Shown: piece by piece, positions 19,716 through 28,678 of the stretch
How the letters are laid out: each line of letters begins with the position of its first letter
How positions within the stretch are numbered: position 1 is the stretch's first letter
Assembly: GCA_022825665.1 (NCBI GenBank)
Contig: JAJDWI010000023.1
Location: 1-55,830, forward strand
DNA: 55,830 bases
Origin: Candidatus Poribacteria bacterium
GTDB lineage: Bacteria > Poribacteria > WGA-4E > WGA-3G
Direction of reading: 5' to 3'
Notes under the pieces: generated by a model
Database searches by the model: none
Told to the model about the DNA's origin: nothing
What the model saw: only the letters and a program-made list of their open reading frames with translations
Position numbers and translations under genes: made by a program

Positions 19716-22700
19716 CTATCTACTCTCAAATTTCTTTGTGACAAGTTTAGACATACCTGCTTGTTCCATTGTTACGCCATACATCACATCCGCTATTTCC
19801 ATAGTACGTCTATTATGTGTGATAATAACAAATTGAGTGTTATCAGAATAGGCACGGATAAGATTTGTAAAACGTAAGACATTTGCTTCGTCAAGTGATG
19901 CATCAACTTCGTCAAGCACGCAGAAGGGACTTGGTTTTATTTTGAACACTGCAAAAAGAAGTCCTATAGCAACGAGAGAACGTTCACCACCGGATAGTTG
20001 AGTAATGTTTTGTGGACGTTTTCCGGGAGGACGCGCGATAATATCAATTCCTGATTCTAAAATATCAGTTTCATCAGTAAGCCGTAATTCAGTTTCTCCC
20101 CCGCCAAAAAGTTGAGTAAATACTTCCTGAAAGTTAGTTTTTACTTTTTCGAAGGTTTTTAGAAACTCATCACGAGATGTATCGTTGATTTTCTGAATTG
20201 CTTGATAAGCAGATTTTATTGAATTTTGAATATCATCGCGCTGTGTAATCTGAAAGTCTAAACGTTTTTTGTATTCTTGATAAGTCTTTATCGCCTTGAG
20301 ATTTACATCACCTATTGCCGATATATCGGCTTTCAATTTTTCTATGTTATCTAACAAGTCAATTTCGTCAAGTTCGGTGGATACTGTTTCGTTTTCTGAA
20401 TCAACTGTTTGGATCATGGGCTTTGGAAATTCGTCAATAGAAACACCATATTTATCAAGGATACGATTAGAATTTGATTTAAGCTGCATCTCCAATTGTG
20501 TGGTTTTTACTTCAAGTTGTTGATGTAAGCGATTCTGCTTCTCATGTTGCCGCCGTGTACTCCGTATCTCCTTATGTAGAGTTTCAATTTCATTGACAAG
20601 TCCATCACGTTCTTGTATAAACTCATCACATTCAGCTTCTGCTTCAGCTCTATCTCCTTCAATCTGTAGGAATTTGCGTTCCGCTCCTTTAATCTGATTT
20701 GCGATTTCGTGTTTATTTTGTTCATCATTGTCAATAATTTCTTGCTGTTTAATTATTTCTTGTTCAATATGGAGCTGTGATTGGTCAATGCCTTCCAATT
20801 CATTTTGCATGCCGTTGATTTTTCCTTGTTGTCCTGCCAGGAACACCTCTCTTTTCTGTATTTCTTCAACAAGTTCATCCCTTTTAATCGTATCACTATC
20901 AATTCCTTCAGACATTCTTTGGATCTTGTTCTGTGTTTGTTTCTGTTTTTTTGAAAGTTCTTCTATTTCAGCATCAAGGTTTATTTGTTCATCACGAGAA
21001 ATGTCAACCTTCTCTTGGTGTCGTTTATTTTCAATTTCTACATCAGCAAGTAGTTTTTCAAGTCGAGATATATTCTTTTCTGCGATGTCCCTATCTTTCA
21101 ATTTCGCAGCTTTTTCAATCTGTTTGTCTTGGAGTTGAGCTGACAGTTTTTGTTTAGTTTGCTGTGTCTCCGCAATTGTTGATGCGTAACCTTTACGTTT
21201 TTCAAGATTTTGCGTTTTAATTCTGGTAAGATCCTCAATTTTACTTTTTAACACATCCAATTCATTTACACGACTTAGAAGACCAGTTTTCTTTTGTTCA
21301 GTATAACCACCGGTAATAGATCCAGAGGTATTGATTAATTCACCGTCCAAGGTAACCATACGAACATTAGGTCTGAATCGCCGTTTAAGTCCAATTGCAT
21401 CATCCAATTTTTCAACAATGAGGGTGTTACCTAACAGATGTTGAACTGCACTCTGATATTTATAATCAAAATCCACCAATTCTTCAGCAATACCGATGAC
21501 TCCCGGTTCTTCAAGAAGTTTATGATCAGAGAAAGTTCTCCTTCGGATTATATCAAGTGGTATAAATGTTACCCTTCCCGCTTGGTTTCTTTTGAGGAAT
21601 TTGATACCAGCATCTGCATCTTCTGCAGTTTCTGCTATTACATTTTGGATCGCACTACCAAGAGCAACTTCTATAGCAATTTCAAATTCATTATCTGTTT
21701 GAATAAGTTCAGCAACTACACCACATATCCCTCTAAACTCATTAGGATATTGGGATTTTGCTTGCATAATTGCACTTACTCCAGCATAGTATCCCCTATA
21801 GGAAGATTGCATCTGCTTTAAAGTATTATACTGTGTGACACTACCTCCCAATGATTCTTGTAATCCGTTTATTTTTAATTCAATCTGACGAAGTGAGTTT
21901 TGTGCCTCATTATATATTGATTCTACTTTGCCTTTTTCAGTCTCTATTTGAACAATGTCTGATTCAATTAGCGTGGTAGATTGTTGAATTTTTTCAAAGT
22001 TCTCTGTGGCGGATTGATATTCTGCTTTTAAGGAATCAGTATTTTCTTGAATTTTATTGAGATTGTCTTGTGAACTTGTTACTGCTTCCTTAATTGATAT
22101 TAGTCTGTTTTCTCGGATTGCAAGGTCAGTGTTAATTTGTTGTAGTGTAGACTTTGCATCTTGTACAGTTTCTTTCGCTCTATCAATACGTGAGTTGGAA
22201 TCTTCTAAGACTGTCTTGCGACCAAATAAACGACTCTCTTCAATTTTATATGCTGATTCAAGTTTTTTCTTTTCTTGCGTGCGTTCTCGTTTACGTGTCT
22301 GTAATTGAGACTTCTGATTATCTAAAGAATCAAGTGTTTCTAATGCTCTTTGTCGTTGTTGACCTATATTAAGTTGATTCTCTTTGTGAACTACGATTTG
22401 ACGTTCTATTTTTTCTGCATTAGCTGAAATTTCACTAATTCTATTTTGTGATTCTACTATGATATTATCTAACTCAGTTTTCCTGACTGTGGCACTGTCA
22501 ATTCTTTCTTCTGATTCCTGAATTAACTCGTTCACATCGCTAACTTCATTAAGGATAGCATCTAATTTCTCTTGTTTCTCACGATACTCTACGGCAAGCT
22601 TTTCATGTTTCTTATATGCAAGGCTTAGTTCTAAATGTTGGAGTTTTTCATGTAATGATTGGTAGTGTTCGGCTTGTTCAGCTTGTTTCTTTAAGGATTC

Positions 22701-23306
22701 AGTATCACTTTCCAATCCTTGAATTACATCATTAATCCGAACTAAATTCTGTTTTGTTGCCTCTAATTCACGAAGTGTAATTTTCCTGTTGTGTTTGTAT
22801 TTTGTGATACCCGCAACTTCGTCAAATAAAAATCGTCGCTCTTCAGGACGAACGTTGAGTATCAAATCAATTTTACTTTGTTCCATGACCGAATAAGCAT
22901 CAACACCTATTCCTGTATCCATGAATAACTCGCTAATATCTCGAAGTCGACATGGTGTGTTGTTAATGAGATAACTACTCTCACCATCGCGTGTAAGTTG
23001 TCTGCCTACTTCAACATCTGGCGATCCTACAGAGAGATTATCTGATATATTTTTAAAGGAGAGGGAAACACTTGCTTTTTGTGCCGGGTTGAATTTAGAA
23101 CCACCATTGAATAGTAAGTCTCGCATATTAGTACATCTGAGTGCACGCGCGCTTTTTTCCCCAAGGACCCAACGAATTGCATCAGAAACATTACTCTTAC
23201 CGCATCCGTTAGGTCCAACAATTGTGGTGATACCGGGCTCAAGAATTAGTTCTACCTCTTCGGCAAAACTTTTGAAACCACTTACTTTGATGCTATTTAA
23301 GTGCAA
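19716..23306 (-). CDS. smc: Chromosome segregation protein SMC, TTG start
   Basis: A 1196-residue SMC. Walker A is VGPNGCGKSN near residue 31, followed by two long coiled coils (about 165-500 and 660-1010) around the hinge (about 515-640, containing RGICGVVAELI and TLDGELINTSGSITGG). The C-terminal ATPase half has LSGGERSLVAIGLLFAV (signature) and CVLDEVDASLDEANV (Walker B). The start is set at TTG 23304-23306 because AGGAGG (complement of 23313-23318) lies 6 bases upstream and the protein then begins LHLNSIKVSGFKSF, as SMCs do; the GTG at 23327 would run through that site. No scpA or scpB is in the window. It is next to comF. Confidence 0.95.
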   Translation of the reverse strand: MHLNSIKVSGFKSFAEEVELILEPGITTIVGPNGCGKSNVSDAIRWVLGEKSARALRCTNMRDLLFNGGSKFNPAQKASVSLSFKNISDNLSVGSPDVEVGRQLTRDGESSYLINNTPCRLRDISELFMDTGIGVDAYSVMEQSKIDLILNVRPEERRFLFDEVAGITKYKHNRKITLRELEATKQNLVRINDVIQGLESDTESLKKQAEQAEHYQSLHEKLQHLELSLAYKKHEKLAVEYREKQEKLDAILNEVSDVNELIQESEERIDSATVRKTELDNIIVESQNRISEISANAEKIERQIVVHKENQLNIGQQRQRALETLDSLDNQKSQLQTRKRERTQEKKKLESAYKIEESRLFGRKTVLEDSNSRIDRAKETVQDAKSTLQQINTDLAIRENRLISIKEAVTSSQDNLNKIQENTDSLKAEYQSATENFEKIQQSTTLIESDIVQIETEKGKVESIYNEAQNSLRQIELKINGLQESLGGSVTQYNTLKQMQSSYRGYYAGVSAIMQAKSQYPNEFRGICGVVAELIQTDNEFEIAIEVALGSAIQNVIAETAEDADAGIKFLKRNQAGRVTFIPLDIIRRRTFSDHKLLEEPGVIGIAEELVDFDYKYQSAVQHLLGNTLIVEKLDDAIGLKRRFRPNVRMVTLDGELINTSGSITGGYTEQKKTGLLSRVNELDVLKSKIEDLTRIKTQNLEKRKGYASTIAETQQTKQKLSAQLQDKQIEKAAKLKDRDIAEKNISRLEKLLADVEIENKRHQEKVDISRDEQINLDAEIEELSKKQKQTQNKIQRMSEGIDSDTIKRDELVEEIQKREVFLAGQQGKINGMQNELEGIDQSQLHIEQEIIKQQEIIDNDEQNKHEIANQIKGAERKFLQIEGDRAEAEAECDEFIQERDGLVNEIETLHKEIRSTRRQHEKQNRLHQQLEVKTTQLEMQLKSNSNRILDKYGVSIDEFPKPMIQTVDSENETVSTELDEIDLLDNIEKLKADISAIGDVNLKAIKTYQEYKKRLDFQITQRDDIQNSIKSAYQAIQKINDTSRDEFLKTFEKVKTNFQEVFTQLFGGGETELRLTDETDILESGIDIIARPPGKRPQNITQLSGGERSLVAIGLLFAVFKIKPSPFCVLDEVDASLDEANVLRFTNLIRAYSDNTQFVIITHNRRTMEIADVMYGVTMEQAGMSKLVTKKFESR

Positions 23307-23312
23307 AGTTAG

Positions 23313-23318
23313 CCTCCT
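23313..23318 (-). promoter_or_regulatory. Consensus Shine-Dalgarno deciding the smc TTG start
   Basis: A perfect AGGAGG on the minus strand, 6 bases before the TTG at 23306. It lies inside the longer frame that would start at GTG 23327, which argues for the TTG start. Confidence 0.7.
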
Positions 23319-23393
23319 ACCAATCACATTTCGTCAAGTTTGTTATCAGTTAGTTAATCTAATTGTTAATACGAAAAAGACACCTTATCGGTT

Positions 23394-24131
23394 TCATACA
23401 GGATTTAATGCTCTTGCCAATGTAAGGACATCAATTTCCATTGGGTCTGCATTCCATAACACCTTTACTGCCTCGCGGACTGTAGCACCTGTGGTATATA
23501 CATCATCAAGAACAAGTAATTTCTTATCTCGGACGACTTCACTCCTTCGTAGTGCGAATGCCCCTATTATATTCGTTTGACGTGCTTCTCTATCCAAACT
23601 ACTCTGTGGAGATGTATTCTTTTCCCGAATTAGTGCGTCCATAAGAATCGGATTATTACTCATTTTACTAATGTGGTTGGCAAGTAACATAGTTTGGTTG
23701 AAACCTCTTTCACGCAAACGTTTTTTGTGAATAGGGATTGGCAAAATATAATCATATTCATCAAAGGAAAAATCGTTTGGTAGGTTTGCTATTATTAGTT
23801 GTCCAAGGTGTTTTACAAGGTTAGTTCGTTTTTCAAATTTATATAGGTGGATAAGGTGTTGAAGCGTTCCATGGTAAATACCGATCGTACGAAGTTTGCC
23901 ATACTGTGGCGGTTTGGTAGCACAATCAGCACAGATACCTTCGGCATTTGGAATTCCGCAAATTTCACACCATGGTGGAGAAATAATATCAATATTAGTC
24001 CAACATGTATCACAGACATAAGGAACCGATTCAATACCGATAATCTTTTCACAGACTCTACATTGTGCAGGGTAGATAAATGAGACTGCTGTTTCAATAG
24101 TTTGATGGAATATAGATGGACGTAATTGCAT
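23394..24131 (-). CDS. ComF-family phosphoribosyltransferase-like protein
   Basis: A 245-residue ComF/GntX-family protein. The N-terminal part has paired Cys typical of the double-zinc-finger region (CRVC, CDTC, CEIC and CADC, about residues 24-71). The C-terminal phosphoribosyltransferase-like domain contains YILPIPIHKKRLRERGFNQ and the PRPP loop VLDDVYTTGATVREA near residue 203. In Bacillus and Haemophilus, ComF proteins help DNA uptake in competence. No other competence genes are in view. It lies 87 bp upstream of smc on the same strand. Confidence 0.88.
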   Translation of the reverse strand: MQLRPSIFHQTIETAVSFIYPAQCRVCEKIIGIESVPYVCDTCWTNIDIISPPWCEICGIPNAEGICADCATKPPQYGKLRTIGIYHGTLQHLIHLYKFEKRTNLVKHLGQLIIANLPNDFSFDEYDYILPIPIHKKRLRERGFNQTMLLANHISKMSNNPILMDALIREKNTSPQSSLDREARQTNIIGAFALRRSEVVRDKKLLVLDDVYTTGATVREAVKVLWNADPMEIDVLTLARALNPV

Positions 24132-24539: not shown

Positions 24540-27500
24540 TTATATGTTGAGATCCACATTCAGGAAATCAGCGAGTTTAGCAGATTCATCTTGGAGTCGG
24601 ACATATCTGCTTGAGTCATGTGCTTCTCCATTTATCTGTGATGCTATAAATTCGTGTGGATAGTGAGTTTTCAAATATGCCATTCTGTATGATAACAAAG
24701 AGTATGTAACTGAATGGGATTTGAGGAAAGCATATCTTCCAACTGATTTCAGATGGTCAAATATCTTCTCAGCATCAATCTTGGTTATTTTATTTTCCAA
24801 TGCACCATCAATGAATTTTGATTGTTGTTGATTAATTATATCTTCTTTCTTTTTACCAAACGCTTCACGGAGAATATCTGCTTCTCCAAGCGTATATCCA
24901 GCCGTATCACATGCGATTTGCATTATCTGCTCCTGATATATACATAGACCGAAGGTAGATTTGAGAGCACTTTCAAGTGATGGATGTAAATATGCTATCG
25001 GTTGTCGTCCATTTTTCCTTTCAATGAACTGCTGCATTATTCCATTTCTTATGGGACCTGGACGATAGAGTGCTACAATTGCTGAAAACACTTCAAAATT
25101 ATCTGGTTTGAGCTGTGTAACAACATCATACATCTCAGGTGAAGTTTCGAGTTGGAATAAACCTGCTGTCAATCCCTCACTGATCAGTGAATAGGTCATA
25201 TTATCCTCAAGCGGTATGTCTTCGAGTGCTATCATGTGACCATGATTTTCGTGGATCCTTTTTAAGCAGTCCGCAATATCCGAGAAAGCTCTAACACCAA
25301 GTGTATCAAATTTATGGATGCCAATATTTTCAACAGTTTTTCCTTCAAACTGGGTAGCAACTTCACCATGTATATCCTTGAATAGCGGGGTGTATTCAGT
25401 AAGTTGTTCTTTTGATATTGCTATAGCAGAAGCATGACAGGATACGTGACGTTTCATACCTTCAAGCCCTTTACTTATTACAACTAAATCATTATATTCA
25501 TCCTGTCTCGCAAGTGCTTTAAATTCTGGTACTGTATCCATTATCTCATCTAAAGTGATACCCGGTAAAGGTGGTATAAGTTCAGTTAACTTATTAATGT
25601 TTTCATTAGGAACTTCAAGAGCACGACTGACATCCTTTATTGAAGATTTTGCACCGAATGTTGCAAAAGTAGCAATTTTACCCACAGAATCATGACCATA
25701 TTTGTTCATAAGGTAATTTATCATGTCGTCACGAGCGTTATCAGCTAAGTCTATATCAATGTCTGGTGGATTCAATTTATCAGGATTTATGAAACGGTCA
25801 AACATACATCCATGATCCATCGGATTAAAGTTGATGATATCAAGCGCGTAGCAGACAAGACTACTGGCAGCTGATCCACGTGCAGAAAGCAGATATCCTT
25901 GATTTATTGCATAGGCGACATAATCAGCGATAATTAAAAAATAGTCTGTATATCCTGTTTGTCTAATTACATTCAGTTCATATTCCAGTTGTTTACTTAT
26001 TGGTTCAGCAAGATGTCCACCTATTTTCTGTTTCAATCCATCATAGCATAACTTTTCTAAGTAACTATCTTGCGTAAAACCTTCAGGAACATCAAATTTG
26101 GGAATTACATTTCTGCCGTAATCCAGTATTAGATTACATCGGTTAGCAATTTCTGTGGTATTGAGTATAGTTTCAGGAGGAAAATCTTTGAAAGCATCCA
26201 GCATCTCATCAACATTCTTAAAATAGAAATGATTGTTGAATCGATTTCGATCGGGATCATTGACAGTCTTTTTTGACTTGATACATTGAAGAATGTCGTG
26301 CATACGGTGATCAGTCTTTTTCATGTAATGACAATCGTTAGTCCCAACAATATTCAGATTGAATTCATTTGCCAGATCAACCGCTTGTGGATATGTAGAT
26401 GACTCGTTTTCAAGATAGTGGTTTTGGACTTCAACATAAAGATTGTCCTCACCCATAATGTCTTTCAGTTGTAATAAATTACGAATTGCATCATCCCTTT
26501 GGTTAGAACTGATTAATTTTGGAATCAAGCCATTGATGCAACCAGTCAATGCGATTATACCACCGTGATATTCACGGAGTATTTCAAGGTCTATACTGGG
26601 TTTTCTATGAAACCCTTTTGTATATCCGAGTGATGTCAATTCTAAAAGATTGCGGTATCCAACCGCATCTTCTGCTAATAATGTTAGATGGTATAGCGTA
26701 TTATTGTTACTTTCTGTAGTGATATTTACCTCACATCCTACAATGGGGTTTACACCTGCTGATTTTGCAGTGTTGTAAAATTCCCATGCGCCAAACATGT
26801 TTGCATGGTCAGTGAGTGCAACCGCTGGAGAACTGTTTTCAACTGCCCACCCTACCATATCAGGAATTCGGCAGGTGCTATCCAATAAACTGTATTCACT
26901 ATGATTATGTAGGTGAACAAATTCTGAAGAGTTTGAGGAAGAAATAATGTCGTCTTGTCCAGGTGATGCGACACGATCTGTCTGTGTAGTTTGGTAAGAA
27001 GGTCTTTTTTTAGATTCTGGTCCAGTTGCCAAAATCGTTACAATTGCTTCATCCGTTTTTTCTGATTTTTCTTTATATATCATGCCGAAGATAGGTTGTG
27101 CTTGTTGTATATTATCCGAGATTACTTTCATAGCATCATCTAATTCAAACATTGTAAAGTCTGGTGGTGAACAGATATTTACTATCATTCCTACAGATTC
27201 CGCAAGGGTATTCTCTGCAAGGAGTGGAGAATTTATAGCCTTTTCAGCAGCGATTCTGGCACGGTTTTCTCCACTGGCTTTTCCAATTCCCATCTGAACT
27301 GTTCCTTGGTCTCGTAACATTTCTTCTATATCATTAAAATCAATATTAATTTCACCGCTTATAGTAAGAATATCAGTTATAGAATTGATGCCTTGGAGGA
27401 GTATTTCATTGCATTTTTGGAATGCTTCACTCATCTGTAATTCATTCTCAAATAAATCAAGGACTCGTTGATTTGGTATAACTATAAGTGCATCTGCACG

Positions 27501-28565
27501 AGGATGAGAAGTGTTTTGTAGTTCCTGTATGCCATGTTCTGCTTGTTCATTCCGGTGCAATCCTTCAGAATCAAAGGGACGTGTTACAAAACAGATTGTT
27601 AATGCCCCTTGTTCTCTTGCAAGAGATGCTATCAGAGGAGCTACAGATGTGCCTGTTCCTCCTCCCATTCCTGCGGTAATCATAACCAACTTTGCATCAG
27701 AAACTATAGTTCGGATTTGATCAATGTTTTCAGCAGTAGCTTTTTTGCCAAGTGCCAGACTGCCATCAGTTCCTGTGCCTTGCATAGTTTTTTTACCAAT
27801 TTGTACTGTTGTTACACCTTGACATGAACTGAGAGATTCACTATCTGTATCTATACAGTAATAGTCAAATTCTTTATTGCCTTCTCTAATCATATTCGTT
27901 ACAACCATACATCCGGCTCCCCCAACACCAATAATCTTTAATTTCGATTTATTATTATCTGATTGTGCTTTTATATTTGTCATAGCCTCTCCCTTTATAG
28001 GTTCTATTTCAAACTGTTTACGTAGAAGTGACCTGATTTCACTAAGTCTTGTCTTTACAGTACCAAGTGCTAAATTGAATTCCTCAGCAATTTCTTTGAT
28101 ACTGCATAAATCAAGGTAGTACATTTTTGCAATAGAACTTACTCGCTGTGGTAACTGATATACTGCCTCTTTTGCATCTGCATGGAGTCTTTCATCATGG
28201 AAACGTTGTTCAGCATCCTTATCAATCTGTTTAGCTAAATCTTCGTAATCCATAATTATTTCACTGTTCCGATGCAGATTAGATGCATAGTATCTATTAC
28301 AGGCGGTTATCGTAATACGTCGCAACCATGCACCAAAACTTTCTGCCTTTCGTAAACCGATGATGTTTTGCCAAACTGCCAACCAGATATCCATCATAAT
28401 TTCTTCTGCATCGCGCCTTTGTCTTGAATTATCCATTACAATTTGCCAAATCCGTGGACTATATCGCGCTACTAATTCAGTGAATGCCGCTTCATCACGA
28501 CATTGGACAAGATGTACCAGTTCTATGTCTGACAGGTTGTTTGGACTTACAAAATTGAAGTTCAT
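24540..28565 (-). CDS. Three-part fusion: ECF sigma factor, FtsZ GTPase, DNA polymerase III alpha (PHP and polymerase core)
   Basis: One uninterrupted 1341-codon frame. Residues about 1-185: ECF sigma, with region 2 (AFTELVARYSPRIWQIV; AEEIMMDIWLAVWQN) and region 4 helix-turn-helix (SIKEIAEEFNLALGTVKTRL). Residues about 205-515: FtsZ, with GVGGAG, tubulin signature GGGTGTS (301-307), the T7 loop NIDFND (407-412) and INSPLL. After a 30-residue linker, residues about 548-1341: DnaE, with PHP HLHNH (551-555), TDH, GCEV; polymerase motif ARGSAASS (895-902), the Asp cluster PDIDID (934-939) and KFD (1085-1087). It ends near the point equivalent to the SRQTLWLK..DECW..LPPDIN region of E. coli DnaE, so the helix-hairpin-helix, OB and tau-binding parts are missing. 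FtsZ's C-terminal peptide is also absent. An internal ATG at 27983 has its own ribosome binding site. Its role is unknown. Confidence 0.85.
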   Translation of the reverse strand: MNFNFVSPNNLSDIELVHLVQCRDEAAFTELVARYSPRIWQIVMDNSRQRRDAEEIMMDIWLAVWQNIIGLRKAESFGAWLRRITITACNRYYASNLHRNSEIIMDYEDLAKQIDKDAEQRFHDERLHADAKEAVYQLPQRVSSIAKMYYLDLCSIKEIAEEFNLALGTVKTRLSEIRSLLRKQFEIEPIKGEAMTNIKAQSDNNKSKLKIIGVGGAGCMVVTNMIREGNKEFDYYCIDTDSESLSSCQGVTTVQIGKKTMQGTGTDGSLALGKKATAENIDQIRTIVSDAKLVMITAGMGGGTGTSVAPLIASLAREQGALTICFVTRPFDSEGLHRNEQAEHGIQELQNTSHPRADALIVIPNQRVLDLFENELQMSEAFQKCNEILLQGINSITDILTISGEINIDFNDIEEMLRDQGTVQMGIGKASGENRARIAAEKAINSPLLAENTLAESVGMIVNICSPPDFTMFELDDAMKVISDNIQQAQPIFGMIYKEKSEKTDEAIVTILATGPESKKRPSYQTTQTDRVASPGQDDIISSSNSSEFVHLHNHSEYSLLDSTCRIPDMVGWAVENSSPAVALTDHANMFGAWEFYNTAKSAGVNPIVGCEVNITTESNNNTLYHLTLLAEDAVGYRNLLELTSLGYTKGFHRKPSIDLEILREYHGGIIALTGCINGLIPKLISSNQRDDAIRNLLQLKDIMGEDNLYVEVQNHYLENESSTYPQAVDLANEFNLNIVGTNDCHYMKKTDHRMHDILQCIKSKKTVNDPDRNRFNNHFYFKNVDEMLDAFKDFPPETILNTTEIANRCNLILDYGRNVIPKFDVPEGFTQDSYLEKLCYDGLKQKIGGHLAEPISKQLEYELNVIRQTGYTDYFLIIADYVAYAINQGYLLSARGSAASSLVCYALDIINFNPMDHGCMFDRFINPDKLNPPDIDIDLADNARDDMINYLMNKYGHDSVGKIATFATFGAKSSIKDVSRALEVPNENINKLTELIPPLPGITLDEIMDTVPEFKALARQDEYNDLVVISKGLEGMKRHVSCHASAIAISKEQLTEYTPLFKDIHGEVATQFEGKTVENIGIHKFDTLGVRAFSDIADCLKRIHENHGHMIALEDIPLEDNMTYSLISEGLTAGLFQLETSPEMYDVVTQLKPDNFEVFSAIVALYRPGPIRNGIMQQFIERKNGRQPIAYLHPSLESALKSTFGLCIYQEQIMQIACDTAGYTLGEADILREAFGKKKEDIINQQQSKFIDGALENKITKIDAEKIFDHLKSVGRYAFLKSHSVTYSLLSYRMAYLKTHYPHEFIASQINGEAHDSSRYVRLQDESAKLADFLNVDLNI
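27981..27993 (-). promoter_or_regulatory. Internal ribosome binding site and ATG at the sigma/FtsZ junction
   Basis: On the minus strand, GGGAGAGG (complement of 27986-27993) lies 2 bases before an in-frame ATG (27981-27983), which would begin MTNIKAQ at codon 195, 10-15 residues before the FtsZ fold. The shorter FtsZ-polymerase product could therefore be made independently of the sigma part. No comparable start exists at the FtsZ/polymerase junction. Confidence 0.5.
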
Positions 28566-28678
28566 AAATAGTTCCCATTTAGAATTTGGTTTAAAGAGGA
28601 AGATTATTATAGGGTTGGTTTAAAAAAATGAGAAAAAGTTATAGGGATTTTATTTCTCGGTTTATGTAGAATTAGGGG

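Follow-up and report, generated by a model that had tools for sequence, protein, structure and literature searches.

What would lead a bacterium to encode a sigma factor, its division GTPase and the core of its replicative polymerase as one polypeptide? The question is raised by a contig of Candidatus Poribacteria (JAJDWI010000023.1, assembly GCA_022825665.1), of which positions 1 to 55,830 constitute the window analyzed here. At positions 24540-28565 (-), a single frame, uninterrupted by stops over 1341 codons, joins an extracytoplasmic function (ECF) sigma factor, FtsZ and the core of DnaE, the alpha subunit of DNA polymerase III. In every system known to us, distinct proteins are responsible for transcription, division and replication. 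A sequence-only reading of the locus had noticed this joined frame, proposing that it might physically couple division to DNA synthesis or else be a specialised or decaying module. The frame is confirmed here by Pfam and NCBIfam domains and by its presence in 28 species, and it belongs to a wider family of sigma fusions in which the cargo is exchanged.

All three parts of the frame are recognizable by profile. In the sigma part, the Pfam families Sigma70_r2 (residues 31-95) and r4_2 (134-179) both exceed their family cut-offs, and the NCBIfam model sigma70-ECF (TIGR02937) gives 65.8 bits against a cut-off of 42.9, with regions 2 and 4 only being represented. The FtsZ part comprises the Tubulin/FtsZ GTPase (209-371) and FtsZ_C (421-515) domains, carries the GTP-binding signature GMGGGTGT and the T7 loop INIDFNDIE, and scores slightly below the cut-off of the NCBIfam ftsZ model (TIGR00065; 285.6 bits against 295.2), above which several orthologues rise (up to 335). 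The DnaE region (residues 547-1330 by Pfam and NCBIfam) includes PHP (551-716, E=5e-50), DNA_pol3_alpha (834-1090, E=1.5e-78) and DNA_pol3_finger (1097-1258, E=1.9e-52), and reaches 861 bits with the NCBIfam polc model (cut-off 434). Its match runs to position 798 of the 1022 in the profile and, in the E. coli chain of 1160 residues, to roughly residue 807, leaving a core of PHP, palm, thumb and fingers from which the C-terminal third, with its clamp-, OB- and tau-binding portions, is absent. The inspected fused FtsZ copies also lack the DIPAFLR-type C-terminal conserved peptide, whereas every canonical FtsZ of the group that was examined terminates in a DIPAFLRV-like sequence. In a predicted structure of the fusion (predicted local distance difference test score 71.5; predicted template modelling score 0.56) the individual domains fold, although their relative placement is uninformative; disorder falls at the joint (187-206) and in the tail (516-545), and the FtsZ part matches solved FtsZ with template modelling scores (target) of 0.8-0.9.

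One account of such a frame would be an artifact, be it a misassembly, a missed stop codon or a decaying pseudogene, and the frame is indeed split in two in two related genomes (G039 and G056). However, the sigma-FtsZ-DnaE order is intact, at 56-92% identity, in the genomes of 28 Poribacteria species (the source genome included), which span two genera of one family and derive from independent assemblies, several of them composed of a single contig. Neither a misassembly nor a missed stop was found, and no relative examined has three independent adjacent genes in place of the fusion. Median ratios of nonsynonymous to synonymous substitution rates (dN/dS), taken over 113 ortholog pairs above 80% identity, are 0.088 for sigma, 0.180 for FtsZ and 0.093 for DnaE overall (PHP 0.064, palm-thumb 0.084, fingers 0.130), and canonical genes yield 0.076-0.086 (DnaE) and 0.063-0.132 (FtsZ) in the pairs tested. 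The sigma, FtsZ and DnaE parts are thus each under purifying selection, and the protein is maintained. The catalytic Asp, PHP, GTP-binding and T7-loop residues are retained in nearly all 28 orthologues, the DxD Asp pair being intact in 26 of them; the other two have lost one catalytic Asp and read PDIFIDF. The intact frames of the 28 species and dN/dS values near 0.1 refute the artifactual account, and these values and the retained active sites contradict the suggestion of a decaying module; that of a specialised one fits. The SARGSAA motif was also considered as a sign of a dead polymerase and rejected, because the canonical DnaE of this Poribacteria family (L003, L257-L270) has it too, in a conserved palm motif that reads GPGRGSAA in Thermus DnaE. 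In one orthologue (L007, genome G002), a tandem duplication of some 38 residues lies in frame in the DnaE fingers.

The source genome also encodes, elsewhere, a full ftsZ (446 amino acids, 387 bits) and a full dnaE (1187 amino acids, 1216 bits), a point that the sequence-only reading had singled out for checking, and the fused FtsZ and DnaE are therefore extra copies. The former is approximately 50% identical to the genome's own FtsZ and the latter 62% identical to its own DnaE over the core. Canonical and fused copies are separated in the FtsZ tree with support of 97/95. In the DnaE tree the fused copies form two strongly supported groups, by genus, and a single clade uniting the fused DnaE of both genera is not rejected (p-AU 0.41).

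The joint between sigma and cargo suggests how these proteins originated. In nearly every family member, a purine-rich stretch followed by an in-frame ATG or GTG comes straight after the sigma module. The duplexes that these joint starts (n=95) may form with the anti-Shine-Dalgarno sequence have a median energy of -7.1 kcal/mol, versus -2.7 for 1296 other in-frame ATGs, and 60% of them, versus 4% of the others, reach -7 or lower; the start of sigma itself is preceded by a weaker signal (median -3.9). In the DnaN fusions, a perfect AAGGAGG stands ahead of the ATG of DnaN, and unfused sister sigmas terminate exactly at the onset of the linker. Taken together, the joint signals and the ends of the sister sigmas indicate that the fusions probably arose through loss of the sigma stop codon, with the Shine-Dalgarno sequence of the next gene becoming the linker, which may be a route by which fusions of this kind originate. 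They likewise make it probable that the family fusions still yield two proteins, FtsZ-DnaE being also made alone from Met195 in the case at hand. A single frame may therefore give more than one product. No internal start exists between FtsZ and DnaE, and these two parts are truly fused whichever start is used.

These same data could be taken to mean that the functional products are the cargo proteins translated from the internal start, the sigma arm merely setting their expression and the covalent link being tolerated rather than used. The strength of the conserved joint signal, above that of sigma's own, and the coincidence of linker and sister-sigma termini are in keeping with such nested genes, as is the fact that the fused PurC is the only PurC found in one incomplete genome, where the cargo is probably a working enzyme. 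Yet a single stop codon would suffice to separate the products and none occurs at the joint in the approximately 95 family members examined, and the FtsZ-DnaE joint lacks a start of its own; we consider this explanation unlikely.

A second shared element lies upstream. The consensus TTTAAACC-N18-CTCTWTA precedes nearly all fusion genes, whatever their cargo, and TTTTTTTAAACC-N18-CTCTTTATA sits about 40 bases 5' of the sigma start in almost every member; the few without a clear copy are mostly the second genes of tandem pairs. An exact search of 11 genomes returned 20 sites, 18 of them with an 18-base spacer, and 17 of these 18 lie at family genes. All the 18-base-spacer sites fall in eight genomes, and the three genomes without fusions have no site at all. 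Since promoter and fusion genes co-occur, the sigma proteins probably recognize this promoter and act chiefly on their own genes and those of their paralogues. Two exact sites with no clear downstream gene, one in the source genome with a 19-base spacer (C91:9098) and one in G037, were taken as chance. A wider regulon was discarded because searches with three mismatches returned counts equal to those of the control, and the looser search was interpreted only for sites with at most two mismatches. Three sites with one or two mismatches and the same spacer character precede MacB/FtsX-type ABC permease genes (L318, L332 and L319) in two genomes of the sister genus, and are possible outside targets of this sigma group.

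A promoter that would be almost exclusively autoregulatory also lends itself to the main competing interpretation, which we regard as somewhat unlikely: a growth-arrest switch in which the cargo is the effector, the self-amplifying promoter suddenly supplying defective FtsZ, shortened DnaE or surplus clamp, which would jam the Z-ring and the replisome and render the cell dormant. The missing anchor peptide of the fused FtsZ would be expected in such a switch, as would the paralogue class that holds only the GTPase half of FtsZ, without the T7 loop, since a fragment of this kind is expected to cap filaments; the DnaE and DnaN copies, for their part, could compete with the real subunits. A jammer, however, would not need the catalytic Asp residues of DnaE, which are kept in most species under strong selection, nor a sigma factor that is fused rather than simply upstream, and PurC and WD40 would not obviously inhibit growth.

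The fusions of the family differ in their cargo (Table 1). The sigma subfamily (alignment A1) was detected at E < 1e-30 only within this Poribacteria family, and its fusions have sigma as their constant part, joined in most cases by the GTPase domain of FtsZ. Several two-part proteins still carry a short piece of the DnaE N-terminus at their end, so that an ancestor with all three parts appears to have lost DnaE on several occasions. In some species the fused DnaE extends through the helix-hairpin-helix (HhH) before ending. Because the polymerase has been lost repeatedly, FtsZ is absent once and cargos are swapped, a coupling of transcription to the division and replication machinery fits better than the physical coupling of division to DNA synthesis first proposed, which is possible but not best supported.

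From this anatomy (intact cores in one frame, their conservation, the promoter, the joint and the replacement of cargo) we infer a coupling that would operate as follows. The sigma factor would transcribe its own gene and its paralogues; ribosomes would produce sigma-FtsZ-DnaE and, from Met195, FtsZ-DnaE alone; the cargo would join or compete with the housekeeping Z-ring or replisome; and its state of assembly would sequester or position the tethered sigma, so that transcription from the shared promoter would report on division and replication. That the protein is an autoregulated ECF sigma with a built-in partner derived from spare division and replication proteins, its activity being tied to the state of that machinery, has in our estimation slightly less than an even chance of being correct. 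The broader proposition, that modular chimeric sigmas built on spare FtsZ, DnaE or DnaN tether transcription initiation to ring and replisome while free cargo from the nested start tunes assembly, is possible but more doubtful.

Several observations weigh against this main reading. Because the peptide through which FtsZ is linked to its membrane anchors is missing from the fused FtsZ, and the clamp- and tau-binding part from the fused DnaE, recruitment to a real ring or replisome is only putative. PurC and WD40 cargos misfit a pure division and replication theme, the promoter is assigned to sigma by co-occurrence, and few candidate targets were found outside the family (the MacB-type permeases of two sister-genus genomes). 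The encoded residues already account for part of the Shine-Dalgarno signal, as synonymous shuffles average -6.0 versus the -7.4 observed (the excess being clearest in the three-part proteins of the source genus), and many genes of the source genome begin without a strong Shine-Dalgarno sequence.

FtsZ and replication proteins are known targets of phages, and the cargo set would accordingly suit an anti-phage sentinel, in which phage inhibitors would bind the spare FtsZ, DnaE and DnaN as decoys and thereby free sigma. Again PurC and WD40 misfit, and no defence genes were noted beside the conserved locus, which is syntenic and follows genes for an RbsC-type (sugar-ABC) permease, TatD, a short-chain dehydrogenase/reductase (SDR) and a mandelate racemase, that is, TatD, transport and metabolic functions. 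Relatives are also absent from viral contigs, which further argues against a sentinel and led us to reject a phage origin; we find the sentinel very improbable. A plasmid origin was rejected too, no plasmid record covering 80% of sigma-FtsZ. The carriers are sponge-associated Poribacteria, and those with named records are all Candidatus Poribacteria.

Table 1. Features of the sigma-FtsZ-DnaE locus and cargo classes of the sigma fusion family
Feature	Position in window	Strand	Residues or protein length	Remarks
Predicted ECF-type promoter, TTTTTTAAACC-N18-CTCTTTA	28592..28627	-		Common to nearly all subfamily fusion genes
Whole fusion gene (ECF sigma - FtsZ - DnaE core)	24540..28565	-	1341 codons	Pfam and NCBIfam; 28 species
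ECF sigma module, regions 2 and 4	28008..28565	-	1-186	Pfam, alignment A1
Shine-Dalgarno-like AAAGGGAGAGG in sigma/FtsZ linker	27986..27996	-		Duplex -7.1 kcal/mol; family-wide
In-frame internal start ATG (Met195)	27981..27983	-		Near-invariant; would give a 1147-aa FtsZ-DnaE
FtsZ core, GTPase and C-terminal subdomain with T7 loop	27018..27953	-	205-516	No C-terminal conserved peptide
Low-complexity linker, FtsZ to DnaE	26928..27017	-	517-546	Predicted disordered; no internal Met
DnaE PHP domain region	26106..26927	-		Metal-site residues retained; Pfam; dN/dS 0.064
DnaE palm/thumb	25296..26066	-		PDIDID and KFD catalytic Asp motifs; Pfam; dN/dS 0.084
DnaE fingers	24792..25277	-		Frame stops soon after; no helix-hairpin-helix, OB or tau-binding part
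Cargo FtsZ-DnaE			1350-1450 aa	
Cargo FtsZ alone			550-630 aa	
Cargo FtsZ GTPase half			400-430 aa	Without T7 loop
Cargo DnaE without FtsZ			1113 aa	L139
Cargo DnaN sliding clamp			588-617 aa	Five genomes
Cargo SAICAR synthetase (PurC)				L046/L193
Cargo WD40 propellers			810-920 aa	Also in source genome (L097)
Cargo second sigma-like segment				L126, L127

ECF sigmas with a built-in partner are a known theme, their extensions serving to inhibit, activate or sense (PMC8999054, in the part covered here). The Poribacteria proteins resemble them in having regions 2 and 4 and a large fused C-terminal part, with no anti-sigma gene seen beside the fusion in the window or among the locus neighbors, and in the WD40-fused paralogue of the source genome. 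They differ in their cargo, here a whole division GTPase with the core of a replicative polymerase and in relatives DnaN, DnaE or PurC, and in the internal start at the joint; none of the extensions in the covered part of that review involves FtsZ, DnaN or polymerase III. The nearest working precedent for the coupling would be phage T4 late transcription, in which the sigma-like gp55 is activated by the replication clamp gp45 through a gp55-gp33-gp45 system, according to the portions considered of PMC7892883 and PMC2988020. The likeness, a sigma-like factor acting through a sliding clamp, is closest for the DnaN-fused relatives, which would be its covalent version; the T4 system is encoded by a phage and relies on a non-covalent contact, involves neither FtsZ nor DnaE, and shows no homology in its arrangement. 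One frame that probably gives a long and a short protein has parallels in internal-start genes such as Cas11 within a large subunit (PMC11899642), although the Poribacteria start is placed where two fused parts meet, with a translated Shine-Dalgarno sequence serving as the linker. With regard to the cargo itself, the fused FtsZ shares fold, GTP-binding and T7-loop residues with bacterial FtsZ but is an extra copy, devoid of the conserved peptide and embedded between sigma and DnaE, and the fused DnaE shares PHP, palm, thumb and fingers with their catalytic residues but is likewise extra and ends after the fingers (or HhH, in some species), without OB or tau-binding part.

No sigma factor fused to FtsZ or to polymerase III is described in the open-access literature searched (subscription papers falling outside that search), and the statement of the sequence-only reading that no described protein combines the three held within this scope. 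As far as checked, the type of cargo, its swapping and the nested joint are new. With a conserved and selected sigma-FtsZ-polymerase fusion, in a family where the sliding clamp can take the place of these cargos, it becomes directly testable whether gene expression can be hard-wired to the state of division and replication; the shared promoter could serve as the readout and the nested start as a point of genetic intervention.

Other combinations of these parts were also observed. A third genus carries a sigma-free fusion of DnaN and an FtsZ paralogue (694 amino acids; L277:2929-5010 (-), L278:1741-3633 (-)), and this FtsZ part is sister to the sigma-FtsZ of another genus. Free-standing proteins with the FtsZ GTPase half and no T7 loop (215-224 amino acids; L279:2766-3437 (+), L280:2709-3353 (-)) are related to the short sigma-FtsZ class. 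The sigma-PurC gene (L046:5359-6867 (-), L193:3316-4824 (+)) lies in tandem with sigma-FtsZ and is the sole PurC match of its 84%-complete genome. A different ECF subfamily is fused to DnaN as well, including in the source genome, where such a protein of 585 amino acids (L105:2634-4388 (+), contig C28), with a strong Shine-Dalgarno sequence ahead of the ATG of DnaN, is the only DnaN match (95% completeness). ECF sigmas are matched around 44 times in the source genome, and many of these matches belong to long fusions whose C-termini are M16 peptidase-like, C-type lectin, WD40-like or otherwise propeller-like (L107:3177-5399, L104:15553-17676, L105:7661-9670, L098:1603-4620). In the window, the neighbors of the fusion encode the RbsC-type permease, TatD, SDR, mandelate racemase, SMC and a ComF-type protein; the SMC and ComF-type genes lie directly downstream (19716-24131), a pairing that two further species of the genus share (L035, L037).

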